Source of the DNA: Stomorhina lunata
Lineage: Eukaryota; Arthropoda; Insecta; Diptera; Rhiniidae
Length of the DNA stretch: 64,000 bases
Assembly (NCBI GenBank): GCA_933228675.1
Contig: OW121742.1
Location: forward strand, 19,992,850 to 20,056,849
Direction: 5' to 3'
A program made the translations under genes and the position numbers. Positions 2,481-61,093 of the stretch are shown here, piece after piece. Each line of letters begins with the position of its first letter. Within the stretch, counting starts at the first letter, position 1. Under the pieces are notes generated by a model. The model saw only the letters and a program-made list of their open reading frames with translations. It searched no databases and was not told where the DNA came from.

Positions 2481-2588
2481 TTCTTTTTCTTCGACCTATT
2501 TCCTTTTTCGCAAAAATAATAAAAGATTTTTTCAAGCTTGAGGTCTTATAGTTGTTTTTTTTTTTAAATTAAATATATTTATTTAATT

Positions 2589-2635
2589 ATTTATCGATAT
2601 TTCGCTATCCGTTGGATAGCATCATCAGGATTAAT
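2589..2635 (-). ncRNA. Hammerhead ribozyme motif, type I, left arm of foldback
   Basis: Read on the minus strand: stem I strand ATTAATC (2629-2635), CTGATGA (2622-2628), one unpaired T, stem II GCTATCC/GGATAGC with a 3-nt loop, GAAA (2600-2603), a minimal ATAT stem III, C17, then GATAAAT (2589-2595) closing stem I with one A-A mismatch. All core residues fit. The very short stem III suggests activity only as a dimer. Activity is not shown. Confidence 0.7.
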
Positions 2636-2718
2636 GAGTACAATAAAAGAGTACAAGTACAAGCAATTTTAATATTAAGAGCTATTATACGTAATTCTTG
2701 TACTCTTTTATTGTACTC

Positions 2719-2765
2719 ATTAATCCTGATGATGCTATCCAACGGATAGCGAAATATCGATAAAT
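2719..2765 (+). ncRNA. Hammerhead ribozyme motif, type I, right arm of foldback
   Basis: Mirror copy of the left-arm motif: ATTAATC 2719-2725, CTGATGA 2726-2732, stem II 2734-2740 with 2744-2750, GAAA 2751-2754, cleavage C at 2758, GATAAAT 2759-2765. The motif is identical to the left-arm copy. Confidence 0.7.
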
Positions 2766-2822
2766 AATTAAATAAATATATTTAATTTTTTAAAAAAACA
2801 ACTATAAGACCTCAAGCTTGAA

Positions 2823-2995
2823 ATAAAATTTTTAATAAAAAATTTTTCTATAGAAAATATTTAATACAAAATTTCGATAAACCTTTTTCATAAAATTTTT
2901 TAATATAAAATTTTCAATATAAAATTCTCTATAGAAAGTTTCTCAGTATAAAATTTATACTGAGAAATTTTTTTAATATAAAAAGTTTCTATGTA
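2823..2995. repeat. AT-rich satellite remnant
   Basis: A few degenerate CTATAGAAA units flank the right side of the foldback element, so the element sits inside satellite DNA. Confidence 0.7.
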
Positions 2996-14142: not shown

Positions 14143-14224
14143 CCGTAAGACATTCCAAATTCAATGTCATTACCCCTTTTTTCATTCACAAAAGCAGACA
14201 CCTTGACAAGTTCCTCAAGACAAA

Positions 14225-14602
14225 ATGTTCAAATTATTCATTGCTTGTCTCTTGGCCGTATTTGTTGTGGCTTTTGGAGCTGCTAAACCGGGACTTTTGG
14301 CTGCTGCTCCCGTAGCAGCCTATGGAACTCCTTTCGCCTACACTGCCGCTGTTCCTGCTGTCCGTGCTGCCTATACGGCTGGTTATGTGGCTCCCTATGC
14401 TAGCACCTATAGTGCCTACTCTGTTGCTCATACCGCTGCCTTTCCCGCTGCTTACGCTGCCGCTCCTGCTGTATATCATGCCGCTCCAGTTGTAGCTGCT
14501 GCCCCGGCTGCCAGTTTTGTGGCTCCTGTTGCTCGTGTTGTAGCTGCTCCTGCAGTTGTGCCCGCCGCTCCTGCTGTTCATTTCTTGAAAAAGAAGAAGT
14601 AA
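14225..14602 (+). CDS. Small secreted Ala/Pro/Val-rich cuticle-like protein (125 aa)
   Basis: Single-exon gene for a 125-residue protein. Residues 1-20 form a signal peptide (MFKLFIACLLA start, hydrophobic core, cleavage likely before KPG). The mature part is built of A, P, V and Y with spaced AAPAV / APVAA blocks and ends in HFLKKKK. Composition and the MFKL...AKPG start match the fly 825-Oak / 'cuticle protein 16.5-like' group, thought to be secreted into cuticle or other extracellular matrix; that assignment rests on composition, not on a diagnostic domain. A TATA box, initiator and downstream AATAAA frame the gene. Unlike three paralogues in the window, it has no intron after codon 4. It is flanked on both sides by CTATAG satellites. 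The reverse-strand 141-codon frame over it is a shadow caused by the repetitive codons. Confidence 0.85.
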   Translation: MFKLFIACLLAVFVVAFGAAKPGLLAAAPVAAYGTPFAYTAAVPAVRAAYTAGYVAPYASTYSAYSVAHTAAFPAAYAAAPAVYHAAPVVAAAPAASFVAPVARVVAAPAVVPAAPAVHFLKKKK

Positions 14603-18164: not shown

Positions 18165-18798
18165 TTAACGTACGAAGGCAGTAGCATAAGGATAGGCAGA
18201 GTAACCAGCAGCATAGGGATAGGCACCATAAGTAGCGGCAGCAACGGGAGCGGTATAGGCAGCGGCAGCATAAGGAGTATAGGCTGAGTAGGCCGAGTAG
18301 GCAAAGGGAGCGGCAACTACGGCGGGCTTAGCCATGGCACAGGCAATGAGGGCCAACAAGCAGACAAGGAACTGGGGGAAGAAAAATTGAGATGCAAATT
18401 TATTTATTAAAATTATAAGTTTAAAATGTTTCTTAGTTTTTAAAAATATTTTATAATATATTGTCCATTTTGAAATTAAAATCATAACCCAGTAGTTCCA
18501 AATTTTCAATACCACTCAAACTTCGAGAAAAACTTGTAATTTTTTTTTATTGAAGAGGTTCGATAGCCGCTTTTGTGTCAGCCAAAGTGTCAGCTGGCAA
18601 TTGTTTTAAAAGTCATCCAGTCCGTATTGGAGATAGTTCTATATATATTGAACTGTTGGGAATGTTTTCTATAACAATTTCAGATTTCTGAGTATTTTTT
18701 TATTTCAAATATTTGTCCTTTTTATTTTTGAAATACTTTTTGATCACTTTTTTTAATTTAAAGACTTGATATTTTTTAACACTTACGAATTTGAACAT
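18165..18798 (-). CDS. Small secreted Ala/Tyr-rich cuticle-like protein, two exons (72 aa)
   Basis: Exon 1 is only 18787-18798 (MFKF), followed by a GTAAGT donor. The 415-bp intron ends at CTTCCCCCAG and exon 2 is 18165-18371. The joined product has 72 residues: a signal peptide MFKFFLVCLLALIACAMA, then KPAVVAAPFAYSAYSAY and further AY/PY repeats, ending ATAFVR. Low complexity and the AKPAVVAAP motif after the signal place it with fly cuticle-like 825-Oak-type proteins. A minus-strand TATA box and TCAGTT initiator lie at the expected distance from exon 1. An uninterrupted frame running to 18515 exists only because the intron happens to be open near the acceptor; that N-terminus lacks a signal peptide, so the spliced model is preferred. 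The large intron holds a GC-richer stretch around 18550-18640 of unknown meaning. Confidence 0.8.
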
Positions 18799-27951: not shown

Positions 27952-28394
27952 CTAGAAAAGGGTGGTGTAAGCGGCAGCAGAGTAGGGATAATAAGAAGCG
28001 TAGGGTGCAGCATAAGCAGCAGCTACAGGAGCGGTGTAGGCAGCGGCAACAGGGGCTGTGTAGGCAGCTGCTACGGGAGCAGTATAGGCAGCAGGGGCAA
28101 CAGGAGCAGTGTAAGCGGCAGCTACAACAGGGGCGGCAGCAATACCATTGTAGTTACGGGCAATATATTGGGAACTAGTGGCAGTAACAACACCAGCAGG
28201 AGCGGCAGCTACAAAGGGAGCAGCAGCGAAAACAGCGGGTTTAGCATAGGCTGAGCACACCAAAGCGAACAAGGCTATGAAGACGGACTGCAGAGAAAAA
28301 AAATAAGAAAAAGGATATTAGTTTTTTGAAATCAAAATTAGTTGAAAAGTTAACTAGTTGTCAATAAAATAGATTATCCTACCAATTTGAACAT
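27952..28394 (-). CDS. Small secreted Ala-rich cuticle-like protein with AAYTAPV repeats, two exons (115 aa)
   Basis: Exon 1 (28383-28394) codes MFKL and is followed by GTAGGA. A 95-bp intron with a strong polypyrimidine tract and CTGCAG acceptor leads into exon 2 (27952-28287, TAG stop). The 115-residue product has a signal peptide (MFKLSVFIALFALVCSAYA), then KPAVFAAAPFVAAAPAG, a VVTATSSQYIARNYNGIAAA segment, four to five AAYTAPVA repeats, and a Tyr-rich end (ASYYPYSAAAYTTLF). The TATSSQ..ARNYNGIAAAP segment is, as I recall it, characteristic of fly 825-Oak-type proteins, so this is the best family match in the window. A minus-strand TATA box sits upstream. The role is presumably extracellular matrix or cuticle; the exact function of this family is not established by sequence. 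Confidence 0.85.
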
Positions 28395-37856: not shown

Positions 37857-39551
37857 TTACTGCTCCACATGAGTATTGACTGTGGCATTCGAATGAAAGA
37901 CAATAGCTCCCGCTCTGCGTTGAACATATTTCGCCCTCTGAGTCCGCCAATAATGGACAGCCGATATCAGGCAGATACTGCAAAGCACGAAAACGAAACA
38001 GGACAGAGTGATGGACATAACCATTAGATATTTTTGCATTTGTTGAGCATGCTCGGACATGGTATCCAAAGATTTTTGAAGAATGGATTGAAAATTTTTT
38101 GAAGATTGCAGTTCATTTTCGGCCTCTTGTAGATCTTCCGGAATATGGCTAATACAGGTAACATCTTTTATATGAGTGGTTTCCTTGTCACTGTTATCAT
38201 GTTCTATATGAAGAATCGTATATTCGGTCAATTGAGGCTTAAGCAGAAGCCAATGGAGATAAGAGCAATTGAAACGATTTCGAGAAACACCCAGTTCTAT
38301 GAGTTGAGGAAAAGCTTTGGCAAAGCTATATTTTCCCTGAATTTCTGTTAGATTATTGGCATCTACGAAAAAGGATCTGATATTGGAATTGGCAGGCACG
38401 AAAATATCGAGATTCAGATCGGTTAAATTGTTATAGGACAAATCCAAATTGTCCAGTTGACCCAGTTTGGCAAACATGCCAAAGCATAATTTTCTTATGC
38501 CAGTGGCCTTTAGATTCAAAATAGTCAAATGCTGCAGATCCTGGAAGGTGCTAATATTAGGTGTTCCCACGGGATTAAAGGACAAATCCAGTTCGGTTAA
38601 ATGGCTTAGCAGGGTAATATTGGTTATATCCGATAAATTGTTGCTGCGCATTAGCAAAACATTGACATTTTGCCCATTGTAGACTTGAACCTTGGAAATG
38701 GAATTATTAACGGCTGTCAGAAAATTAGTGCCATTCACCACCAAGAAAGTCAATCTATTCGAATCCAAGTCCAATTTTTTGGTTATGGTTTTATTGCATA
38801 AATTAAAATCATCCAACTGATTGCGTGCCAATATCAAGACCTCGGGACCATAGGAATGTTGAAAGGTCTGAGGATCAAATGACTTCAAACGATTATTGGC
38901 CAGATTCAAGTCTCTTATATGTCTCAAATGATAAAACACTTCCGGTTTAATAGACTCCAACTGATTATTATCCAAGTAGACGGCATCCATGTAGGTATTC
39001 TCAAAAAACAAATCCTCGGGTATGAAGGACAATTGATTATTGGACAAGATGACCTTATTCATATTGGTCAGACCCCTAAAGGCCAGGGAGCCCAAAGTAT
39101 GCAATTTATTAAAACTCAAATCCAAACGCATTAAATTATGGGCCCCCACAAAGACCGAGGTATTTATCTTCTCTATAAGATTATGGCTCAAGTTCAAAGT
39201 AGTCAAGGTACTGGCCGAGGTGAAAGTATTCCTAGAAATATCCTCTATCTCCGTATTGGAAACATCCAAAGTCTTCAAACTACTAAAGACATCAAACAAC
39301 TTTGCAGGTATATCCAACAAAACCGAATTGTAAAATTTCATAAAATTCGTTTGATTCGCCTTAACATAGGGAGGTATCTTAACATTTTGCGAATGCGTCA
39401 CTTGGAAACCCGATACCGTACAGAACTTCTCCATGCCCACAATATTCGTATTGTATTCATCGCATTTCAAGACAATATCCTCCGCGGCGCCTAAGGATGT
39501 TATCAGTAGGAGCGAGTAAAAAACTTTCAAGAAAATTTTTATTTCTTTCAT
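37857..39551 (-). CDS. Leucine-rich-repeat single-pass membrane protein (564 aa)
   Basis: A 564-codon single-exon frame. Residues 1-23 are a signal peptide. A cysteine-containing N-terminal part (C30, C44) leads into about thirteen leucine-rich repeats between residues 70 and 428, with clear LxxLxLxxN units at 92-103 (LKTLDVSNTEIE), 116-127, 140-151, 188-199, 212-223, 318-329, 366-377 and 417-428. A short C-terminal cap (FNCSYLHWLL, second Cys at 466) follows, then a polar stretch (472-505, possibly helical) and one transmembrane segment at 509-533. The cytoplasmic tail of about 30 residues is basic (RTQRAKYVQRRA) with no TIR or kinase domain. A dozen N-glycosylation sequons support extracellular exposure of the LRRs. 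It is therefore a type I LRR receptor- or adhesion-like protein; ligand and pathway cannot be told. It is the only long, complex gene here, lying between a satellite array and a foldback element. No clear promoter is seen; a 5' non-coding exon is possible. Confidence 0.92.
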   Translation of the reverse strand: MKEIKIFLKVFYSLLLITSLGAAEDIVLKCDEYNTNIVGMEKFCTVSGFQVTHSQNVKIPPYVKANQTNFMKFYNSVLLDIPAKLFDVFSSLKTLDVSNTEIEDISRNTFTSASTLTTLNLSHNLIEKINTSVFVGAHNLMRLDLSFNKLHTLGSLAFRGLTNMNKVILSNNQLSFIPEDLFFENTYMDAVYLDNNQLESIKPEVFYHLRHIRDLNLANNRLKSFDPQTFQHSYGPEVLILARNQLDDFNLCNKTITKKLDLDSNRLTFLVVNGTNFLTAVNNSISKVQVYNGQNVNVLLMRSNNLSDITNITLLSHLTELDLSFNPVGTPNISTFQDLQHLTILNLKATGIRKLCFGMFAKLGQLDNLDLSYNNLTDLNLDIFVPANSNIRSFFVDANNLTEIQGKYSFAKAFPQLIELGVSRNRFNCSYLHWLLLKPQLTEYTILHIEHDNSDKETTHIKDVTCISHIPEDLQEAENELQSSKNFQSILQKSLDTMSEHAQQMQKYLMVMSITLSCFVFVLCSICLISAVHYWRTQRAKYVQRRAGAIVFHSNATVNTHVEQ

Positions 39552-39699
39552 AATTTTTCTTTATTTTTCCTTTTCGAAATTTAAGACTTTTTGCCAATTA
39601 TACGATTTACTGCGTCCGCTATTCGTTTATAACTAAATTCATTATTTTACTTAAAGGAATATTTTCCTTTTAATTCTTGACTAAATAAGAATTTATCTC

Positions 39700-40639: not shown

Positions 40640-42415
40640 ATGGATAAAAATCAAAGCAGTTGCCTTAGATCAACGAAATTTGGTATTTGACTTGAAATGG
40701 ATTTAACATGATCATATTCGAAATTTTAACAAACTTGGTCAATTTCTTAATATTGAAAAATAAATGGAATTCACAAAACTAAAAATATCTTCTATATGAG
40801 TTAGATTAGACAAATGAAGATTTGGTTAAATTTTTTGAAAAATTTTGACAAATTTGGCCTAAGGATACGACTAGGATGCACAAATCCTTAAATCTGGAAG
40901 AATCAACAAAAATCAAAAAATGAAACAAAATATCTGAAAGCATGTGACTTGATATGGATTTAACATGATCATATTCGAAATTTTAACAAAATTGGTCTTA
41001 GGATACGCCTACAGCCCACATATTTTTTAATATTGAAAAATAAATGGAATTTACAAAACTAAAAATATCTTCTATATGAGTTACATTAGACAAATAAAAT
41101 TTTGTGCGTAATTTAACAAAGATTTAAATAAATTGTCTAATAAATTTCGACAAAATCGTCTTAAGGATACGCCTAGGATGCACAAATCCTTAAATCTGGT
41201 AGAATCGGCAAAAAACACAAAATTAAAAATATATCTGAAAGCATTTGTCATATATAAATGAAATTTAGAGTGTAATGTATTGCCGAATAGATATACTTGT
41301 GCGTAATATCTTAACAAAATTGGTCAAAGGACACGCCTACCGCCCACATCTTTATAAATATTCAAAAATAAATAGAATTCATAAAATTAAAAATATCTCC
41401 TAAATAAGTTATTTTAGACAAATAAAATTTGATGCATGATTTAATATAGAATTGTTAAAATTGTTTGCAAACTTTCGGCAAAATCGGCCCAAGGATACGT
41501 CTAGGATGCACAAATCCTTAAATCTGGTAGAATAGGCAAAAATCACAAAATTAAAAATATATCTGAAAGCATTTGTCGTATATAAATGAAATTTAGAGTG
41601 TAATGTGATGCCAAATAGATATACTTGTAAGCAATATCTTAACAATATCGGTCATAGGTTACGCCCACCGCCCACATCTTTATTTATATCCAAAAATAAA
41701 TAGAATTTACAAAACTAAAAATATCTTCTATATGAGTTACATTAGACAAATAAAATTTTGTGCGTAATTTAACAAAGATTTAATTAAATTGTCTAATAAA
41801 TTTCGACAAAATCGGCCTAAGGATACGCCTAGGATGCACAAATCCTTAAATCTGGTAGAATCGGCAAAAAACACAAAATTAAAATTATGTCTGAAAGCAT
41901 TTGTCGTATATAAATGAAATTTAGAGTGTAATGTGTTGCCGAATAGATATACTTGTAAGCAATATCTTAACAATATCGGTCATAGGTTACGCCCACCGCC
42001 CACATCTTTATTTATATCCAAAAATAAATAGAATTCACAAAATTAAAAATATCTCCTATATAAGTTATTTTAGACAAATAAAATTTGATGCATGATTTAA
42101 TATAGAATTGTTAAAATTGTTTGCAAATTTTCGACAAAATCTACTCTAGGTTATGCTAAGGATTCGCAAATCCTTAAATATGGAAGAATCGAAAAAATCA
42201 CAATATGAAAAATATATCTAAAAGCAGTTGTCGTATATAAATGAAATTGGATGTGGATAACTTGAAGCCGATATATTTGTGTGCAAAATCTTAACAAAAT
42301 CGGTCTAAGGACACTCCTACCACCCATATATACTTCAATATTGAAGAATCGACAAAAATCACAAAATTCAAAATAAGTCTATCACTCATATTTTCTCTAA
42401 ATGTATCAAATTTAG
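40640..42415. repeat. 328-bp satellite, about five copies
   Basis: The landmark GCACAAATCCTTAAATCTGG recurs near 40878, 41180, 41508, 41836 and (diverged) 42158. The central copies are exactly 328 bp apart and highly similar; the outer ones are diverged or shortened. The 78-codon minus-strand frames at 41081, 41409 and 41737 are the same piece of satellite, not genes. The unit is unrelated to the CTATAG families and has no ribozyme core. Confidence 0.9.
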
Positions 42416-46486: not shown

Positions 46487-46494
46487 TATATAAT
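46487..46494 (+). promoter_or_regulatory. TATA box of the 46575 gene
   Basis: TATATAAT lies about 31 bp before the initiator-like ATCACAGTTC (46516-46525), predicting a 5' leader of about 55 nt. Confidence 0.75.
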
Positions 46495-46574
46495 GGGTCA
46501 CTAAATTGTATGATTATCACAGTTCAATTTGTTTTCTTTTGCAAATCACAACTAAATCACTCAACTCTTACAAG

Positions 46575-46883
46575 ATGTTCAAATTCTTCACTACTGTCTT
46601 GTTGGCTGTCATTGCCTGCGCTGCTGCCAAGCCCGGCATTGTTGCTCCTTTGGCCTACACTGCTCCTTTCGCTGCCAGTGCTGTTGTCTCCCAGGAATAT
46701 CATGGTAACTTTGCTGCTCCCTATGTAGCTGCCGCCTCACCCTACGTTGCTGCCTCCCCCTATGTGGCTTCTCCTTACGTTGCCTCTCCCTATGTAGCTG
46801 CTCCCTATACCGCTGCCACTTATGCTGCTGCTGCTCCTTACGTTGCCGCTCCCTACTCAGCTCCTCTTTTGTTGAAGAAGTAA
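46575..46883 (+). CDS. Small secreted cuticle-like protein with SPYVA repeats (102 aa)
   Basis: A single-exon gene. The ATG at 46575 is chosen because it starts the typical MFKFFTTVLLAVIACAAA signal peptide and lies downstream of the predicted transcription start; an in-frame upstream extension to 46506 lies at or before that start and would bury the signal. The 102-residue product continues KPGIVAPLAYTAPFAASAVV, then SQEYHGNF, and repeats of ASPYVA / APYVAA before ending APLLLKK. Start motif and composition place it with fly 825-Oak / cuticle-like proteins, closest in layout to the 14225 gene: both lack the intron after codon 4 and both end in lysines. TATA box, initiator and AATAAA are all in place. 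Confidence 0.85.
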   Translation: MFKFFTTVLLAVIACAAAKPGIVAPLAYTAPFAASAVVSQEYHGNFAAPYVAAASPYVAASPYVASPYVASPYVAAPYTAATYAAAAPYVAAPYSAPLLLKK

Positions 46884-47119: not shown

Positions 47120-47241
47120 CAGACGAAAAATTTTCTATACAAAAATTTGTAAGATAAAATTTTCTGTACAAAAAATTTTCAGACAAAAAATTTTCTGTAC
47201 AAAAAATTTTCAGACAAAAAATTTTCTATAGAAAAATTTTT
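47120..47241. repeat. CTATAG satellite, left of foldback element
   Basis: Four to five CAGACAAAAAATTTTCT-type units; the array resumes at 47660 on the other side of the foldback element. Confidence 0.8.
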
Positions 47242-47360
47242 AATTAATTGAAAAATTAGGATTTATCAGGCTTGAGTTCATTTTTAATTTTCAAATTATT
47301 AATTTGAAAATTTGAAAGTAATAATGTGGAGAAAAACCGAAAAAATTATTTTTGAACGCG

Positions 47361-47411
47361 GCTAGTGGATTGCAATTTCTGTCCCGCCACAGGACGTCAT
47401 CAGCACTTAGC
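47361..47411 (-). ncRNA. Hammerhead ribozyme motif, left arm of the 47-kb foldback
   Basis: Read on the minus strand: GCTAAGTG (47404-47411), CTGATGA (47397-47403), stem II GTCC/GGAC with a C-A mismatch at its base, GAAA (47376-47379), stem III from the palindrome ATTGCAAT (47369-47376), C17 at 47368, and CACTAGC (47361-47367) pairing with the first strand apart from one bulged A. Stem I is fully paired. The stem II base mismatch may lower activity. Confidence 0.75.
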
Positions 47412-47464
47412 GCCCTCGATGATGATTATCTCTGCAATTTGATAACTCGACTGTGGTCGAGGGC

Positions 47465-47515
47465 GCTAAGTACTGATGACGTCCTGTGGCGGGACAGAAA
47501 TTGCAATCCACTAGC
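47465..47515 (+). ncRNA. Hammerhead ribozyme motif, right arm of the 47-kb foldback
   Basis: Mirror of the left-arm motif with CTGATGA 47473-47479, GAAA 47497-47500, ATTGCAAT 47500-47507, C17 47508 and CACTAGC 47509-47515. One change (G to A at 47472) breaks the stem I pair next to the core, so this copy is predicted to be weaker than the left one. Confidence 0.65.
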
Positions 47516-47659
47516 CGCGTTCAAAAATAGTTTTTTCAGTTTTTCTCCACATTATTACATTGAAATTTTCAAATTAATAATTAAAAATGAACTCAAGCCT
47601 GATAAATCCTAATTTTTCAATTAATTCAATTTAAAGTTCAAATAATTAATTCCCAAATA

Positions 47660-48840
47660 ATGAAAAATTTTTAAGACAAAAAATTTTATATAAAAAAATA
47701 TTTAAGACGAAAAATTTTCTATAGAAAAATTTTTAAGACGACAAATTTTCTATAGAAAAATGTGTAAGACGAAAAATTTTCTATAGAAAAATTTTGAAGA
47801 CGAAAAATTTTCTATAAAAATATTTTTATATCGAAAAATTTTCTATAGAAAAATATTTATATCGAAAAATTTTCTATAGAAAAATATTTATATCGAAAAA
47901 TTTCTATAAAAAAATATTTATTATTTTTTATAGAAAATTTTTTAAGACGAAAAATTTTCTATAGAAAAACGTTTAAGACGAAAAATTTTCTATAGAAAAA
48001 CGTTTAAGACGAAAAATTTTCTATAGAAAAACGTTTAAGACGAAAAATTTTCTATAGAAAAATGTTTAAGACGAAAAATTTTCTATAGAAAAACGTTTAA
48101 GACGAAAAATTTTCTATAGAAAAACGTTTAAGACGAAAAATTTTCTATAGAAAAATTTTTAAGACGAAAAATTTTATATAGACAAATTTTTAACACGAAA
48201 AATTTTCTATAGAAAAATTTTTAAGACGATAAATTTTCTATAGAAAAATTTTTAAGACGAAAAATTTTCTATAGAAAAATTTTTAAGACGAAAAATTTTC
48301 TATAGAAAAATTTTTAAGACGAAAAATTTTCTATAGAAAAATTTTTAAGACGAAAAATTTTCTATAGAAAAATTTTTAAGACGAAAAATTTTCTATAGAA
48401 AAATTTTTAAGACGAAAAATTTTCTATAGAAAAATTTTTAAGACGAAAAATTTTCTATAGAAAAATTTTTAAGACGAAAAATTTTCTATAGAAAAATTTT
48501 TAAGACGAAAAATTTTCTATAGAAAAGTTTTTAAGACGAAAAATTTTCTATAGAAAAATTTTTAAGACGAAAAATTTTCTATAGAAAAATTTTTAAGACG
48601 AAAAATTTTCTATAGAAAAATTTTTAAGACGAAAAATTTTCTATAGAAAAATTTTTAAGACGAAAAATTTTCTATAGAAAAATTTTTAAGACGAAAAATT
48701 TTCTATAGAAAAATTTTTAAGACGAAAAATTTTCTATAGAAAAGTTTTTAAGACGAAAAATTTTTAAGACGAAAAATTTTCTACAGAAAAATGATCAACA
48801 CGGAAAATTTTCAGACAATAAATTTTCTATAGAAAACTTT
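47660..48840. repeat. CTATAG-core satellite, 31-bp unit (linker AAGACGA)
   Basis: Units GACGAAAAATTTTCTATAG plus AAAAATTTTTAA, highly homogeneous at 48170-48740. A sub-block at 47940-48130 carries an ACGTTTAAGACGA variant. Confidence 0.95.
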
Positions 48841-50027
48841 TTATGAAAATGTTATATTTTGTACATTAGAAATTTTCAATAGAAAAATTTTCTGTAGAAA
48901 ATTTTCTGTAGAAAATATTTTCAGACAATAAATTTTCCATAAAAAAATTTCTAAGACAATAAATTTATTTTATATCGGAAAATTTTCTATGGGAAAATTT
49001 TTATATCGGAAAATTTTCTATGGGAAAATTTTTATATCGGAAAATTTTCTATGGAAAAATTTGTATATCGGAAAATTTTCTATGGAAAAATTTTTATATT
49101 GAAAAAATTTCTATAGAAAAATTTTTATATCAAAAAATTTTCTATAGAAAAATTTTTATATCGAAAAATTTTCTATAGAAAAATTTTCATATCAAAAAAT
49201 TTTCTATAGAAAAATTTTTATATCAAAAAATTTTCTATAGAAAAATTTTTATATCGAAAAATTATCTATAGAAAAATGGAAAAATTTTTTAGAGAAAGTT
49301 TTTTATATCGAAAAATTTTCTATGGAAAAACTTTTATATTAAAAAATTTTCTAGAAAAATTTTTACATGGAAAAATTTTTATATCGAAAAATTTTCTACA
49401 GAAAAATTTTTATATAGAAAAATTTTCTACAGAAAAATTTTTATATCGAAAAATTTTCTATAGAAAAATTTTTATATCGAAAAATTTTCTATAGAAAAAT
49501 TTTTATATCGAAAAATTTTCTGTAGAAAAATTTTTATATCGAAAAATTTTTTTAGAAAAGCTTTTATATCGAAAAATTTTCTATAGAAAAATGTTTATAT
49601 CGAAATATTTTTATATGGAAACATTTTTTAGAGAAAGATTTTTATATCGAAAAATTTTCTATAGAAAAATCTTTATATCGAAAAATTTTCTATATAAAAA
49701 TTTTTATATCGAAAAATTTTCTATAGAGAAATGGAAATGGAAAAATTTTTTAGAGAAAGTTTTTTATATCGAAAAATTTTCTATGGAAAAACTTTTATAT
49801 TAAAAAATGTTCTAGAAAAATTTTTACATGGAAAAATTTTCTACAGAAAAATTTTTATATCGAAAAATTTTCTATAGAAAAATTTTTATATCGAAAAATT
49901 TTCTGTAGAAAAATTTTTATATCGAAAAATTTTTTTAGAAAAGCTTTTATATCGAAAAATTTTCTATAGAAAAATGTTTATATCGAAATATTTTTATATG
50001 GAAACATTTTTTAGAGAAAGATTTTTA
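48841..50027. repeat. CTATAG-core satellite, 31-bp unit (linker TATATCG)
   Basis: Units ATATCGAAAAATTTTCTATAG plus AAAAATTTTT. A distinctive stretch (GAGAAATGGAAATGG, TTTTAGAGAAAG) occurs at 49270, 49730 and again at 54010 beyond the hammerhead array. Confidence 0.9.
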
Positions 50028-50649
50028 TCAAAAAATAACAAAATAGTCGGGATGTAAATATTATTCAAAAAGAAGTGTATTTGCATTTGATCCCAAACCT
50101 GTTACATTTATTTATTAATGTAACAGATCAATTTATTGATAAAAAGCCAAAAAATGTTTGCGGAGAAACCAAATTCCTCGACGCGTTTCGATGGTTGGTT
50201 AAGCCATCTCTTCAGGAGGATTATCCCCAATTTAGACAGATCGAAAACCTCGCATTATTACTAAATTTACAAACATAACTATTAAGAATTATGTTTATAA
50301 ACCAAAAGTAAAAGCGTAGATTATCGCCTGAACAAAAACAAACATTTTTCAGTTTTCATCTACCTTCACTTCCCACATTCTTGCTGTAGCCGTCGGCTAC
50401 TATATGCAGAATGCTGTGAAGAAGGGGGGGGTAAGATGTTTTAAAATAAACAAGTTTATTTTAAAAAATAAGCTGAATGCATGCAGTTTTATCAAAAAAT
50501 AACAAAATAGTCGGGATGTAAATATTATTCAAAAAGAAGTGTATTTGCATTTGATCCCAAACCTGTTACATTTATTTATTAATGTAACAGATCAATTTAT
50601 TGATAAAAAGCCAAAAAATGTTTGCGGAGAAACCAAATTCCTCGACGCG
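50028..50649 (-). mobile_element. Hammerhead satellite, first minus-oriented block (1.3 units)
   Basis: Begins abruptly after satellite at ATCAAAAAATAACAAAATAG. One complete ~465-bp unit is followed by the first ~160 bp of a second, cut off inside its ribozyme region. 'Minus' means the hammerhead reads on the minus strand. The unit contains a G tract of 8 at 50434-50441. Confidence 0.85.
50174..50220 (-). ncRNA. Hammerhead ribozyme motif, unit 1
   Basis: Minus-strand copy of the consensus motif described for 50994-51040, with no change in core or stems. Confidence 0.8.
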
Positions 50650-50800
50650 ACGTTTGGGATCAAATGCAAATACACTTCTTTTTGAATAATATTTACATCC
50701 CGACTATTTTGTTATTTTTTGATAAAACTGCATGCATTCAGCTTATTTTTTAAAATAAACTTGTTTATTTTAAAACATCTTACCCCCCCCTTCTTCACAG

Positions 50801-50838
50801 CATTCTGCATATAGTAGCCGACGGCTACAGCAAGAATG
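50801..50838. other. Imperfect hairpin in the hammerhead unit
   Basis: GTAGCCG (50814-50820), A, CGGCTAC (50822-50828) forms a perfect 7-bp stem. With a few bulges it extends to CATTCT (50801-50806) pairing AGAATG (50833-50838). It is repeated in every unit, next to the C tract at 50783-50790. It could help to structure a monomer RNA; no function is shown. Confidence 0.6.
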
Positions 50839-50993
50839 TGGGAAGTGAAGGTAGATGAAAACTGAAAAATGTTTGTTTTTGTTCAGGCGATAATCTACGC
50901 TTTTACTTTTGGTTTATAAACATAATTCTTAATAGTTATGTTTGTAAATTTAGTAATAATGCGAGGTTTTCGATCTGTCTAAATTGGGGATAA

Positions 50994-51040
50994 TCCTCCT
51001 GAAGAGATGGCTTAACCAACCATCGAAACGCGTCGAGGAA
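50994..51040 (+). ncRNA. Hammerhead ribozyme motif, type I, unit 2 (reference copy)
   Basis: Stem I strand TCCTC (50994-50998); CTGAAGA (50999-51005); stem II GATGG (51006-51010) / CCATC (51020-51024) with a 9-nt loop; GAAA (51025-51028); stem III from ACGCGT (51028-51033); C17 at 51034; then GAGGA (51035-51039) pairing with the first strand. Stem I continues beyond a 9-nt bulge with CTAAAT (50980-50985) pairing ATTTGG (51040-51045). All catalytic-core bases match the hammerhead consensus, including G10.1-C11.1. Stem III is only 2 bp with a 2-nt loop within one molecule but 6 bp between two molecules, so a dimeric form is expected. The predicted cut lies between 51034 and 51035. Confidence 0.85.
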
Positions 51041-51457
51041 TTTGGTTTCTCCGCAAACATTTTTTGGCTTTTTATCAATAAATTGATCTGTTACATTAAT
51101 AAATAAATGTAACAGGTTTGGGATCAAATGCAAATACACTTCTTTTTGAATAATATTTACATCCCGACTATTTTGTTATTTTTTGATAAAACTGCATGCA
51201 TTCAGCTTATTTTTTTAAAATAAACTTGTTTATTTTAAAACATCTTACCCCCCCTTCTTCACAGCATTCTGCATATAGTAGCCGACGGCTACAGCAAGAA
51301 TGTGGGAAGTGAAGGTAGATGAAAACTGAAAAATGTTTGTTTTTGTTCAGGCGATAATCTACGCTTTTACTTTTGGTTTATAAACATAATTCTTAATAGT
51401 TATGTTTGTAAATTTAGTAATAATGCGAGGTTTTCGATCTGTCTAAATTGGGGATAA

Positions 51458-51504
51458 TCCTCCTGAAGAGATGGCTTAACCAACCATCGAAACGCGTCGA
51501 GGAA
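51458..51504 (+). ncRNA. Hammerhead ribozyme motif, unit 3
   Basis: Identical to the reference motif. The unit carries a C tract of 7. Confidence 0.82.
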
Positions 51505-51926
51505 TTTGGTTTCTCCGCAAACATTTTTTGGCTTTTTATCAATAAATTGATCTGTTACATTAATAAATAAATGTAACAGGTTTGGGATCAAATGCAAATA
51601 CACTTCTTTTTGAATAATATTTACATCCCGACTATTTTGTTATTTTTTGATAAAACTGCATGCATTCAGCTTATTTTTTTAAAATAAACTTGTTTATTTT
51701 AAAACATCTTACCCCCCCCCCCCTTCTTCACAGCATTCTGCATATAGTAGCCGACGGCTACAGCAAGAATGTGGGAAGTGAAGGTAGATGAAAACTGAAA
51801 AATGTTTGTTTTTGTTCAGGCGATAATCTACGCTTTTACTTTTGGTTTATAAACATAATTCTTAATAGTTATGTTTGTAAATTTAGTAATAATGCGAGGT
51901 TTTCGATCTGTCTAAATTGGGGATAA

Positions 51927-51973
51927 TCCTCCTGAAGAGATGGCTTAACCAACCATCGAAACGCGTCGAGGAA
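51927..51973 (+). ncRNA. Hammerhead ribozyme motif, unit 4
   Basis: Identical to the reference motif. The unit carries the longest C tract, 12. Confidence 0.82.
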
Positions 51974-52394
51974 TTTGGTTTCTCCGCAAACATTTTTTGG
52001 CTTTTTATCAATAAATTGATCTGTTACATTAATAAATAAATGTAACAGGTTTGGGATCAAATGCAAATACACTTCTTTTTGAATAATATTTACATCCCGA
52101 CTATTTTGTTATTTTTTGATAAAACTGCATGCATTCAGCTTATTTTTTTAAAATAAACTTGTTTATTTTAAAACATCTTACCCCCCCCCCCTTCTTCACA
52201 GCATTCTGCATATAGTAGCCGACGGCTACAGCAAGAATGTGGGAAGTGAAGGTAGATGAAAACTGAAAAATGTTTGTTTTTGTTCAGGCGATAATCTACG
52301 CTTTTACTTTTGGTTTATAAACATAATTCTTAATAGTTATGTTTGTAAATTTAGTAATAATGCGAGGTTTTCGATCTGTCTAAATTGGGGATAA

Positions 52395-52441
52395 TCCTCC
52401 TGAAGAGATGGCTTAACCAACCATCGAAACGCGTCGAGGAA
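52395..52441 (+). ncRNA. Hammerhead ribozyme motif, unit 5
   Basis: Identical to the reference motif. C tract of 11. Confidence 0.82.
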
Positions 52442-52831
52442 TTTGGTTTCTCCGCAAACATTTTTTGGCTTTTTATCAATAAATTGATCTGTTACATTAA
52501 TAAATAAATGTAACAGGTTTGGGATCAAATGCAAATACACTTCTTTTTGAATAATATTTACATCCCGACTATTTTGTTATTTTTTGATAAAACTGCATGC
52601 ATTCAGCTTATTTTTTTAAAATAAACTTGTTTATTTTAAAACATCTTACCCCCCCCCCTTCTTCACAGCATTCTGCATATAGTAGCCGACGGCTACAGCA
52701 AGAATGTGGGAAGTGAAGGTTCAGGCGATAATCTACGCTTTTACTTTTGGTTTATAAACATAATTCTTAATAGTTATGTTTGTAAATTTAGTAATAATGC
52801 GAGGTTTTCGATCTGTCTAAATTGGGGATAA

Positions 52832-52878
52832 TCCTCCTGAAGAGATGGCTTAACCAACCATCGAAACGCGTCGAGGAA
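52832..52878 (+). ncRNA. Hammerhead ribozyme motif, unit 6
   Basis: Identical core and stems. This unit has lost about 30 bp upstream (near 52720), outside the ribozyme. Confidence 0.82.
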
Positions 52879-53296
52879 TTTGGTTTCTCCGCAAACATTT
52901 TTTGGCTTTTTATCAATAAATTGATCTGTTACATTAATAAATAAATGTAACAGGTTTGGGATCAAATGCAAATACACTTCTTTTTGAATAATATTTACAT
53001 CCCGACTATTTTGTTATTTTTTGATAAAACTGCATGCATTCAGCTTATTTTTTTAAAATAAACTTGTTTATTTTAAAACATCTTACCCCCCCCTTCTTCA
53101 CAGCATTCTGCATATAGTAGCCGACGGCTACAGCAAGAATGTGGGAAGTGAAGGTAGATGAAAACTGAAAAATGTTTGTTTTTGTTCAGGCGATAATCTA
53201 CGCTTTTACTTTTGGTTTATAAACATAATTCTTAATAGTTATGTTTGTAAATTTAGTAATAATGCGAGGTTTTCGATCTGTCTAAATTGGGGATAA

Positions 53297-53343
53297 TCCT
53301 CCTGAAGAGATGGCTTAACCAACCATCGAAACGCGTCGAGGAA
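53297..53343 (+). ncRNA. Hammerhead ribozyme motif, unit 7
   Basis: Identical to the reference motif. C tract of 8. Confidence 0.82.
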
Positions 53344-53761
53344 TTTGGTTTCTCCGCAAACATTTTTTGGCTTTTTATCAATAAATTGATCTGTTACATT
53401 AATAAATAAATGTAACAGGTTTGGGATCAAATGCAAATACACTTCTTTTTGAATAATATTTACATCCCGACTATTTTGTTATTTTTTGATAAAACTGCAT
53501 GCATTCAGCTTATTTTTTTAAAATAAACTTGTTTATTTTAAAACATCTTACCCCCCCCTTCTTCACAGCATTCTGCATATAGTAGCCGACGGCTACAGCA
53601 AGAATGTGGGAAGTGAAGGTAGATGAAAACTGAAAAATGTTTGTTTTTGTTCAGGCGATAATCTACGCTTTTACTTTTGGTTTATAAACATAATTCTTAA
53701 TAGTTATGTTTGTAAATTTAGTAATAATGCGAGGTTTTCGATCTGTCTAAATTGGGGATAA

Positions 53762-53808
53762 TCCTCCTGAAGAAATGGCTTAACCAACCATCGAAACGCG
53801 TCGAGGAA
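53762..53808 (+). ncRNA. Hammerhead ribozyme motif, unit 8, base pair 10.1-11.1 broken
   Basis: The motif reads CTGAAGAAATGG instead of CTGAAGAGATGG. G10.1 at 53774 has become A, turning the conserved G10.1-C11.1 pair into A-C. Otherwise intact. It is the terminal unit of the block, next to satellite DNA. Confidence 0.75.
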
Positions 53809-53921
53809 TTTGGTTTCTCCGCAAACATTTTTTGGCTTTTTATCAATAAATTGATCTGTTACATTAATAAATAAATGTAACAGGTTTGGGATCAAATGCA
53901 AATACACTTCTTTTTGAATAA

Positions 53922-54570
53922 GATTTTTATATCGAAAAATTTTCTATAGAAAAATCTTTATATCGAAAAATTTTCTATATAAAAATTTTTATATCGAAAA
54001 ATTTTCTATAGAGAAATGGAAATGGAAAAATTTTTTAGAGAAAGTTTTTTATATCGAAAAATTTTCTATGGAAAAACTTTTATATTAAAAAATGTTCTAG
54101 AAAAATTTTTACATGGAAAAATTTTCTACAGAAAAATTTTTATATCGAAAAATTTTCTACAGAAAAATGTTTATATCCAAAAATTTTCTACAGAAAAATG
54201 TTTATATCGAAAAATTTTCTACAGAAATTTTTTTATATCGTTATACTTCCTATAAAAAAATTTTCTATAGAAAAATTTTTATATCGAAATATTTTCATAT
54301 GGAAAAATTTTTTAAAGAAAGATTTTTATATCGTAAAATTTTTATGTTAAAAAATTTTCTAGAAAAATTTTTATATGGAAAAATTTTTTATAGAAAAATT
54401 TTTATGTAGAAAAATTTTCTTTAGAAAAATTTTTATATCGAAAAGTTTCTCAAGAAAAATTTTTATATCCAAAAATTTCTATAGAAAAATTTTAATATCG
54501 AAAAATTTTCTATAGAAAAAATTTTATATCGAAAAATTTTTATATGGAAAAATTTTTTATAGAAAAATTT
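53922..54570. repeat. CTATAG satellite (TATATCG linker) between hammerhead blocks
   Basis: The first ~190 bp (53926-54115) are almost identical to 49640-49830 on the far side of the array, including the GAGAAATGGAAATGG landmark. The rest is degenerate. Confidence 0.85.
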
Positions 54571-54683
54571 TTATTCAAAAAGAAGTGTATTTGCATTTGA
54601 TCCCAAACCTGTTACATTTATTTATTAATGTAACAGATCAATTTATTGATAAAAAGCCAAAAAATGTTTGCGGAGAAACCAAA

Positions 54684-54730
54684 TTCCTCGACGCGTTTCG
54701 ATGGTTGGTTAAGCCATCTCTTCAGGAGGA
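54684..54730 (-). ncRNA. Hammerhead ribozyme motif, unit 9
   Basis: Minus-strand copy, core and stems unchanged. Confidence 0.82.
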
Positions 54731-55146
54731 TTATCCCCAATTTAGACAGATCGAAAACCTCGCATTATTACTAAATTTACAAACATAACTATTAAGAATT
54801 ATGTTTATAAACCAAAAGTAAAAGCGTAGATTATCGCCTGAACAAAAACAAACATTTTTCAGTTTTCATCTACCTTCACTTCCCACATTCTTGCTGTAGC
54901 CGTCGGCTACTATGTGCAGAATGCTGTGAAGAAGGGGGGGTAAGATGTTTTAAAATAAACAAGTTTATTTTAAAAAATAAGCTGAATGCATGCAGTTTTA
55001 TCAAAAAATAACAAAATAGTCGGGATGTAAATATTATTCAAAAAGAAGTGTATTTGCATTTGATCCCAAACCTGTTACATTTATTTATTAATGTAACAGA
55101 TCAATTTATTGATAAAAAGCCAAAAAATGTTTGCGGAGAAACCAAA

Positions 55147-55193
55147 TTCCTCGACGCGTTTCGATGGTTGGTTAAGCCATCTCTTCAGGAGGA
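55147..55193 (-). ncRNA. Hammerhead ribozyme motif, unit 10
   Basis: Minus-strand copy, core and stems unchanged, although the hairpin of the same unit has mutated. Confidence 0.82.
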
Positions 55194-55621
55194 TTATCCC
55201 CAATTTAGACAGATCGAAAACCTCGCATTATTACTAAATTTACAAACATAACTATTAAGAATTATGTTTATAAACCAAAAGTAAAAGCGTAGATTATCGC
55301 CTGAACAAAAACAAACATTTTTCAGTTTTCATCTACCTTCACTTCCCACCTTCTTGCTGTAACCGTCGGCTACTATGTGCAGAATGCTGTGAAGAAGGGG
55401 GGGTAAGATGTTTTAAAATAAACAAGTTTATTTTAAAAAATAAGCTGAATGCATGCAGTTTTATCAAAAAATAACAAAATAGATGAAAACTGAAAAATGT
55501 TTGTTTTTGTTCAGGCGATAATCTACGCTTTTACTTTTGGTTTATAAACATAATTCTTAATAGTTATGTTTGTAAATTTAGTAATAATGCGAGGTTTTCG
55601 ATCTGTCTAAATTGGGGATAA

Positions 55622-55668
55622 TCCTCCTGAAGAGATGGCTTAACCAACCATCGAAACGCGTCGAGGAA
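55622..55668 (+). ncRNA. Hammerhead ribozyme motif, unit 11
   Basis: Identical to the reference motif. It lies 140 bp from the inversion point. Confidence 0.82.
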
Positions 55669-56084
55669 TTTGGTTTCTCCGCAAACATTTTTTGGCTTTT
55701 TATCAATAAATTGATCTGTTACATTAATAAATAAATGTAACAGGTTTGGGATCAAATGCAAATACACTTCTTTTTGAATAATATTTACATCCCGACTATT
55801 TTGTTATTTTTTGATAAAACTGCATGCATTCAGCTTATTTTTTAAAATAAACTTGTTTATTTTAAAACATCTTACCCCCCCTTCTTCACAGCATTCTGCA
55901 CATAGTAGCCGACGGCTACAGCAAGAATGTGGGAAGTGAAGGTAGATGAAAACTGAAAAATGTTTGTTTTTGTTCAGGCGATAATCTACGCTTTTACTTT
56001 TGGTTTATAAACATAATTCTTAATAGTTATGTTTGTAAATTTAGTAATAATGCGAGGTTTTCGATCTGTCTAAATTGGGGATAA

Positions 56085-56131
56085 TCCTCCTGAAGAGATG
56101 GCTTAACCAACCATCGAAACGCGTCGAGGAA
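56085..56131 (+). ncRNA. Hammerhead ribozyme motif, unit 12
   Basis: Identical to the reference motif; the last one in the array. Confidence 0.82.
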
Positions 56132-56275
56132 TTTGGTTTCTCCGCAAACATTTTTTGGCTTTTTATCAATAAATTGATCTGTTACATTAATAAATAAATG
56201 TAACAGGTTTGGGATCAAATGCAAATACACTTCTTTTTGAATAATATTTACATCCCGACTATTTTGTTATTTTTT

Positions 56276-56400
56276 GAAAAATTTTTATATGGAAAAATTT
56301 TCTATAGAAAAATTTTCATATCAATAAATTTTCGATTTAAAAATTTTTCTATAAAAAATTTTTCGATAATAAAATTTTTCTATAGCTTTAATTTTTCATT
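56276..56400. repeat. CTATAG satellite remnant at the right edge of the array
   Basis: Three to four degenerate units with CATATC, CGATAA linkers. Confidence 0.7.
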
Positions 56401-60916: not shown

Positions 60917-61093
60917 GCAAAAATAAAAATCTGGTTGAGCTTGAGGTCTTTGTTTTTTATTATTTATTAAATATATTTATTTAATATTTAATCAATATTT
61001 CGCCATCCATTGGATAGCATCTTCAGGATAATGAGTGACAATAAACCAGACAACATTTGTTTACGTCCAGTTTGCCTTAATTTTAAAATTAAC
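60917..61093 (-). mobile_element. Solo hammerhead element, recent insertion with 5-bp TTAAC duplication
   Basis: Compared with the duplicated locus at 63139-63190, which reads straight through ATTTTAACAAAAAATT, this copy has 177 extra bp ending in a second TTAAC (60912-60916 and 61089-61093). The inserted sequence starts GCAAAAATAA, carries GAGCTTGAGGTCTT as in the 2509 element, and has one hammerhead on the minus strand. The empty site fixes both boundaries exactly: a 172-bp element plus a 5-bp target duplication. Confidence 0.85.
60990..61032 (-). ncRNA. Hammerhead ribozyme motif in the solo element
   Basis: Minus strand: CTGAAGA (61020-61026), an unpaired T, stem II GCTATCC/GGATGGC (one G-T pair) with a 3-nt loop, GAAA (60998-61001), minimal ATAT stem III, T at the cleavage position (60994), then GAT beginning the second strand of stem I. 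Stem I (ATTATC with GATTAA) has a T-T mismatch. The core is intact, the stems are weaker than in the 465-bp units. Confidence 0.6.

Follow-up and report, generated by a model that had tools for sequence, protein, structure and literature searches.

The stretch at 50023-56281 of a 64-kb window of Stomorhina lunata DNA (C7:19992850-20056849 of a 728-Mb assembly; positions given without a locus or contig name are those of the window) is two adjoining insertions, A and B, of a dispersed element and not one satellite. A sequence-only reading had described it as a tandem satellite; that reading overlooked two fixed outer ends, here called P and Q, and the inverted pairing of the arms. The element consists of tandem copies of a 464-nt unit with a type I hammerhead motif, and it is best read as a retrozyme by its anatomy, with scars that point to Penelope-type insertion. 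It is probably a non-coding, non-autonomous retrozyme inserted by two-strand priming of the kind used by Penelope-like elements (PLEs), on an RNA circle or multimer.

Insertion A (50023..53926) has a minus arm at 50023-50649 with outer end P, a centre at 50650-50651 and a plus arm at 50652-53926 with outer end Q at ~53921. Insertion B (54571..56281) has a minus arm at 54571-55482 with outer end Q and a plus arm at 55483-56281 with outer end P at ~56277. AT satellite (53927-54570) separates the two. Each insertion is flanked by a target-site duplication: AAGATTTTTAT at 50018..50028 (+) and 53920..53930 (+) for A, which is equalled by 9 of 200 offset controls, and GAAAAATTTTTAT at 54562..54574 (+) and 56276..56288 (+) for B, which is equalled by none of 200. 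Tandem Repeats Finder gives a period of 465 at 50652-53926 and 463 at 54571-55482. The complete units in the window are 463-470 nt long, except for a 437-nt unit in which about 30 nt are deleted, and the ~465-bp unit reported earlier is confirmed. The spread in length lies largely in a poly-C tract (by eye). The length of this tract also differs among units of one insertion A arm (by eye), which fits slippage while copying or afterwards.

The reference unit (51035..51498, +; 464 nt) is numbered from the base after C17 of the hammerhead. It has a GC fraction of 0.32, and its predicted circular fold has an energy of -123.2 compared with -84.5 (sd 6.0) in 30 mononucleotide shuffles. No open reading frame (ORF) of at least 100 aa lies within insertions A and B, and the element therefore depends on another one, in agreement with the earlier description of a retrozyme-like unit without an enzyme of its own. 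Site Q lies at 51147..51153 (+; unit 113-119), after TTCTTTTTGA, and site P at 51184..51193 (+; unit 150-159), after TTATTTTTTGA and 37-38 nt past Q; each is the outer end of one arm.

Twelve copies of the hammerhead motif lie within 50023-56281, nine on the plus strand (cores at 50999, 51463, 51932, 52400, 52837, 53302, 53767, 55627 and 56090) and three on the minus strand (55188, 54725 and 50215). In the copy at 50979..51045 (+), stem I is CTAAAT..TCCTC/GAGGAATTTGG, the core is CTGAAGA/GAA, stem II is GATGG/CCATC and stem III is A-CGCG-T, with C17 at 51034 and a cut predicted from the motif between 51034 and 51035. The CUGANGA, GAA and H17 core, the three helices and the open helix I bear out the assignment to type I. 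The core bases are identical in all 12 copies, as had been stated for every unit; the same statement about the stems holds for 11 of the 12, the copy at 53767 having AATGG for GATGG and thereby lacking the G10.1-C11.1 pair that closes stem II. Both C17 and the palindromic ACGCGT are present as described, but ACGCGT is unable to fold on itself as a 3-bp stem III: it can form either a single A-U pair with the palindromic CGCG enclosed or, between two ribozymes, a helix of 6 bp. A regular-expression scan that demanded three helices, run over 258 kb (overlapping loci counted), returned only this motif and those of two other hammerhead-like families, 2 and 4, which are described below.

The genome contains at least 208 matches to the unit, and those listed fall in 39 places on five contigs; 40 of the 1601 candidates in this search were scored. 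The 40 insertions compared are A, B and those at 38 loci outside the window, which are the best matches and hence young copies. Arm boundaries were placed by hand on an alignment of the tandem unit, and older or partial copies in L014, L016, L021, L022, L027 and L040 were left out of the count. All share one plan, with a minus arm on the left, a plus arm on the right and the 3' sides of the hammerheads facing outward. Two arms are present in 29 of the 40 insertions and one arm in 11. The arms range from 66 to 3275 nt, or up to 7 units, and while their inner ends vary, their outer ends fall at Q and P, ~115 nt and ~152-153 nt past the predicted cut.

These two positions are used in a regular way, mostly one each. 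Both ends could be typed in 26 two-armed insertions, of which 24 combine P with Q (23 by script, and L024 with its Q assigned by eye), two have Q at both ends (L020 and L029) and none has P at both ends. Independent ends would give 12.9 mixed insertions (p 4.6e-6). The two-armed insertions outside the typed set are L017, with an odd end at unit 187, and L019 and L040, with a cut or untyped end. Among one-armed insertions, 10 of 11 end at Q (L023, L025, L026, L032, L033, L035, L036, L039, L042 and L043) and one ends at P (L044). Q therefore looks like the usual start and P mostly like a second start. The insertions thus combine the features of Penelope-type insertion, namely inverted ends of which one is tailed, a short duplication and an AT-rich target.

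Target duplications were assessed at the 26 loci with two scripted ends, each against 200 offset controls. At 16 of these loci at most 10 controls match the flanking repeat, and no control is as good at L013, L015, L017, L030, L045, L046 and insertion B. Duplications longer than 4 bp, as expected of retrozymes, are thus clear in 16 of 26 loci. The 21 duplications that were summarised are 11-15 nt long. A makes up 73% of their 5' halves and T makes up 74% of their 3' halves, and a cut strand therefore tends to finish with a run of T. This set holds 15 of the 16 clear cases. It excludes L012, L016, L020, L027 and L029, and retains L045 and L046 (one mismatch) together with L009, L011, L018, L021, L031 and L038, for which 13-91 of 200 controls are equal.

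The inside of the insertions is informative about the template. The 29 centres comprise 28 distinct pairs of inner ends, and none is palindromic, in that no equal inner ends occur within 10 nt; the centres are therefore not hairpin tips. The inner ends cluster weakly (Rayleigh p 0.04), with 1 of 58 falling exactly at the cut. At nine variable sites the units within a locus agree almost throughout and loci differ; the only deviation within a locus is a single L036 unit that differs at one of these sites, which affects 4 of the 1198 pairs within arms. Majority calls are concordant between the arms in 200 of 200 comparisons, a value that none of 2000 permutations of partners reaches (mean 0.815, maximum 0.900), and substitutions per kb rise from 0.35 within arms to 0.83 between arms and 4.70 between loci. 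The arms exceed the distance from start to cut in 63 of 69 cases and 1.34 units in 49 of 69. The former shows that no break at the predicted cut interrupted the RNA that was copied, which was thus either a circle or an uncut multimer.

The genome contains candidate sources of the enzyme. A Pfam search for GIY-YIG gave two matches, L047, which we take to be the host SLX1 gene, and L048. With the endonuclease-like ORF of L048 as query, 150 matches were scored among 206 candidates. Of these, 14 are uninterrupted by stops and belong to open frames of at least 750 aa. Pairs with the minus copy on the left and the plus copy on the right are numerous, and the one at C11:74117354-74125413 carries tandem copies in one arm. 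The sole full frame scanned, L076 (864 aa), contains an RVT_1 reverse transcriptase above the Pfam cut-off, and GIY-YIG in this frame falls short of E 0.01. NCBIfam gave no match, and no source labels these proteins Penelope-like; we assign them as putative PLEs from the GIY-YIG of L048, the RVT_1 of L076, the minimal hammerheads and the inverted copies. PF26215, which we take for a PLE domain, is listed for P0145. The first residues of the L076 frame are the translation of the tail (by eye), in line with the published overlap of pseudo-long terminal repeat (pLTR), tail and ORF start. Two loci of the 465-nt element, L014 and L028, adjoin PLE copies.

The resident PLEs follow the same two-end rule, and the link to Penelope-like elements that had been suggested from the motif is strengthened accordingly. 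Nine inverted PLE pairs were hand-picked from about twenty and their outer ends read by eye: in seven of them one arm is tailed and the other tail-less, and the other two are uninformative because of a truncated left arm (L067/L068) or right arm (L074/L075). Duplications seen by eye include AGAAATATTTTTC (L061/L062) and AAAAACTATTAGG (L072/L073). With anchors placed by eye, Q and P lie 35-46 nt apart in those PLE copies where the spacing was measured, whereas family 2 has a spacing of 35 and the 465-nt unit one of 37; the distances from the cut to Q and to P are 118 and 153 in family 2 and 115 and 152 in the unit. CTGANGA is present in 7 of 10 PLE ends (L049, L051-L055 and L058). A minimal hammerhead-like motif has 4 matches in 237 kb (L048 included) and none in 20 mononucleotide shuffles. 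The 3' ends of PLEs L050 and L057 have a hammerhead-like core TTGAAAA with both C3 and G8 changed; judging from the letters, the altered bases could pair as U-A.

A further feature that may be shared is a stem around the start site. In the unit, GGGAT..ATCCC (51120..51165, +; unit 86-131) would hold Q in its loop. Stems were sought in 17 sequences from the ribozyme onward (Watson-Crick, at least 5 bp, at least 3 G/C, loop 22-60), which returned GACCT/AGGTC in PLEs A, B, E, J, J2 and K, TGACCA/TGGTCA in G and H, TGAACC/GGTTCA in family 4 and GGGAT/ATCCC in the unit. The scan was blank in C, D, I, L and two family-2 rows and found only an unrelated pair in F; C and D apparently end before the tail (by eye), and the TGAACT/AGTTCA of family 2, which falls under the G+C filter, was spotted by eye. 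Some qualifying stem arises in 1-53 of 200 shuffled sequences, the figure for the unit being 33. Where its position was measured, in ten cases, the 3' strand sits in the tail, which places Q in the loop. For the arms chosen (12 rows, 8 distinct), 95.8% of cells are paired, both sides change in 4 of 6 pairs and covariation is 0.601 compared with 0.186 when shuffled (0 of 500), a value that is overstated because stem-less sequences were left out and some arms were picked for complementarity. Older copies of the unit retain the GGGAT arm wherever they reach it and show no compensatory changes. A stem with Q in its loop thus occurs in many PLE copies and in two other ribozyme elements, and goes weakly beyond chance in the unit.

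In published work, a PLE protein in purified form cut and extended the two strands of its target, with a preference for AT-rich DNA; its internal starts fell at two adjacent sites, between which lies a 30-40-nt 'tail' (PMC11167929). Another study describes inverted pLTRs, one of them with a 31-bp tail, together with duplications of 8-10 bp, and favours self-priming as the explanation (PMC3846280). PLEs have already been proposed as helpers of retrozymes (PMC7229834; PMC8969392); the mobilizing enzyme of animal retrozymes was left open, with a PLE as a candidate (PMC7229834; PMC7761336), and a 2024 review names long interspersed elements (LINEs) or PLEs as the movers (PMC11722881).

Ribozyme activity, monomers of ~465 nt, their circles and the agency of a PLE enzyme are presumed in the course of events that we propose. 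Tandem copies would be transcribed, and the hammerheads, probably acting as pairs because stem III is only A-CGCG-U, would cut the RNA into ~464-nt monomers that would then be ligated into circles. A PLE protein would cut AT-rich DNA with a stagger and prime reverse transcription from both exposed 3' ends, one strand at Q, ~115 nt past the ribozyme cut, and the other ~38 nt beyond Q, at P. Both polymerases would then travel around the RNA, often for more than one round, and the two cDNAs would be joined at a variable point. The expected product is an insertion with a target duplication and a single haplotype, whose inverted arms have outer ends that are fixed but differ from each other.

More tentatively, as a possibility that we would not quite call likely, a PLE dimer may load both cut strands on a single circular RNA, one per site, by means of the Q-loop hairpin and of P ~35-45 nt downstream, so that animal retrozymes and PLEs would be served by one machine. 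If so, each insertion records two-direction rolling-circle reverse transcription from one molecule, which would account for the Penelope 'tail on one inverted end' and also for how tandem retrozyme arrays arise.

Several observations weigh against the retrozyme reading or against parts of it. The comparison with the Rfam type I model that had been put forward as a check fell short: RF00163 (Hammerhead_1) scores 23.1 bits (E 8e-4) in a 121-base search, below the 34-bit cut-off, in an alignment that spans the full model (1-45) without a loop in stem III. At Rfam gathering thresholds there is no match in the 64-kb window, and a scan of 6.4 kb gave no hammerhead family at E<=10. The minimum-energy fold from ViennaRNA (-12.4 kcal/mol) is not the hammerhead fold (-4.6), and the local fold (71 nt) is not stabler than shuffles (z -0.17); ribozyme activity is thus predicted from the motif alone. 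A straddling stem like GGGAT/ATCCC arises in 72 of 2000 shuffles of the unit. Ten of the 26 duplications (L009, L011, L012, L016, L018, L021, L027, L029, L031 and L038) are not clearly above chance, with 13-200 of 200 controls equal, chance flanking repeats being common because of the AT satellite. L016 and L018 share one centre (unit 460|18), though their haplotypes differ, which may reflect a hotspot or a common origin. The concordance of haplotypes could have been raised by gene conversion between arms, and a multimer from one homogeneous locus would equally yield one haplotype.

The partnership with PLEs is open to similar objections. Read by eye, the unit lacks the terminal motif GACCTYRAGCYT of the PLEs. 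Q and P are U-rich here, whereas the published PLE start is AC-rich, and on both counts no specific PLE partner is identified. In vitro, moreover, the start site of the published PLE was alike on both strands, which does not predict the one-each rule, ribozyme mutants of that PLE were still inserted, and its RNA reads neither began nor ended at the cut (PMC11167929).

The alternative that survives best keeps the two-strand chemistry and overlaps with the retrozyme explanation except in the form of the RNA, which would be an uncut multimer, with the hammerhead dispensable. Arms that run beyond the start-to-cut distance in 63 of 69 cases are not copies of a self-cut linear monomer, and a published PLE inserts RNA whose ribozyme has been inactivated (PMC11167929). 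An uncut multimer would, however, require repeated escape from cutting for arms of up to 7 units, and animal retrozyme RNAs accumulate as circles (PMC7229834). We consider this alternative possible but lean against it.

A second alternative replaces the PLE by a reverse transcriptase of the LINE type, with twin priming as the source of the inverted arms. Twin priming can indeed invert LINE insertions. To our knowledge, two fixed starts 38 nt apart have not been seen in it, and the two-end rule is found in the genome's own PLEs and in family 2, which makes a LINE an unlikely agent.

Self-priming on an antisense template could also yield inverted arms and has been proposed for head-to-head PLE copies with palindromic inverted junctions (PMC3846280). 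None of the 29 centres of the present element is palindromic within 10 nt, and each outer end abuts the target duplication at a start that is fixed, and so we regard self-priming as highly improbable here. A DNA foldback transposon or miniature inverted-repeat transposable element, with inverted repeats that hold the repeated unit, would account for the inverted arms, the target duplications and the common centre of L016 and L018, but it would be expected to repeat a shared centre and shared arm lengths in many copies, which is not seen among the 40; the variety of centres (28 distinct pairs) and of arm lengths, the one-armed copies and the recurrence of the fixed 38-nt end offset in resident PLEs leave it with almost no credence. 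Scarcely any more can be given to an ordinary satellite spread by unequal crossing-over plus inversions, which fits the tandem layout and the homogeneous arrays and predicts long arrays without fixed ends, since no such long array occurs in the sampled loci and the element forms dispersed, short, two-armed insertions with opposed arms, two fixed ends and target-site duplications in at least 39 places.

The retrozyme with Penelope-type insertion resembles known systems in part. Animal retrozymes and PLE hammerheads are both known already. Like the metazoan retrozymes that lack long terminal repeats (PMC7229834; PMC7761336), the element has short, AT-rich, non-coding tandem units with a type I hammerhead and no long ORF, a strongly self-paired circle (here a predicted fold) and duplications of more than 4 bp. 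It differs from them in the length of the unit (464 nt, compared with published RNAs of ~170-400 nt) and in its two-armed inverted insertions with two fixed ends, which the available parts of those papers do not mention. With the PLEs Poseidon of Anolis (PMC11167929) and Penelope of Adineta vaga (PMC3846280) it shares inverted ends, short duplications, AT-rich targets, a ~30-40-nt tail on one end and a hammerhead upstream of the starts. Unlike them, it has a fuller hammerhead and lacks a reverse transcriptase, an endonuclease and the GACCTYRAGCYT motif; with no ORF of 100 aa or more in the insertions, it is not itself a PLE, which would carry an ORF with reverse transcriptase and GIY-YIG. The satellite hammerheads of newt and axolotl (PMC7229834) likewise have a one-pair helix III closed by a palindromic tetraloop; those of the salamanders are active mainly as dimers, and their unit and host differ. 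Neither inverted two-ended retrozyme insertions nor the shared stem is described in the parts of the literature that were covered, and priority is not claimed.

These results bear on how ribozyme elements spread in animals, in particular on which enzyme moves retrozymes and on how the inverted ends of Penelope elements arise. For this element, the non-palindromic centres speak against the self-priming view (PMC3846280). With dozens of young insertions and many resident PLE copies in one fly, both questions are directly testable.

The window and other loci hold further hammerhead-like elements. A family 2 element with two inverted arms lies at 47241..47660, with a tail-less core at 47403 (-) and a core with a ~35-nt tail at 47473 (+), as read by eye. 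Its motif is AGTG CTGATGA C GTCC..GGAC A GAA ATTGCAAT C CACT, with a C-A mismatch at position 10.1-11.1, and further copies lie in L018 near 5337 (-) and in L021 near 3625 (+). A fourth hammerhead-like element, at ~660-830 of L027, reads AGTGTG CTGATGA..GAA AATGCAGCATT C CACACT, followed by CCCGACTCGAACCC, which resembles what we take to be the complement of a tRNA B-box. A Penelope-type terminal pair at 2540..2826 has minimal hammerhead-like motifs at 2628 (-) and 2726 (+) and the ends GACCTCAAGCTTGA. A PLE end of the L052 subfamily at 60930..61090 (-) has such a motif at 61026; this copy looks like an insertion of spliced RNA, because the GTAAG..AG stretch of L052 is missing from it. Other Rfam matches (mir-8196, STnc350, mir-70, MIR5743, mir-722, twister-P3 and bxd_5) were all under their own cut-offs.

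Elsewhere in the window, a leucine-rich repeat protein encoded at 37857-39560 shares 86% identity with a protein of Lucilia cuprina and 73-76% with those of Stomoxys, Haematobia and Musca, which indicates a calyptrate host close to the blowflies and is in keeping with the fly host deduced earlier from the letters. AT-rich repeats of ~30 bp (AAAATTTTTCTATAGAAAA type) occupy much of the window (1-64000) and border most of the insertions compared (by eye), and a 328-bp tandem repeat is present in 4.1 copies at 40983-42326. Short alanine-rich ORFs at 14207-14602 (+), 18165-18515 (-), 27952-28317 (-) and 46494-46883 (+) look like secreted cuticle proteins.

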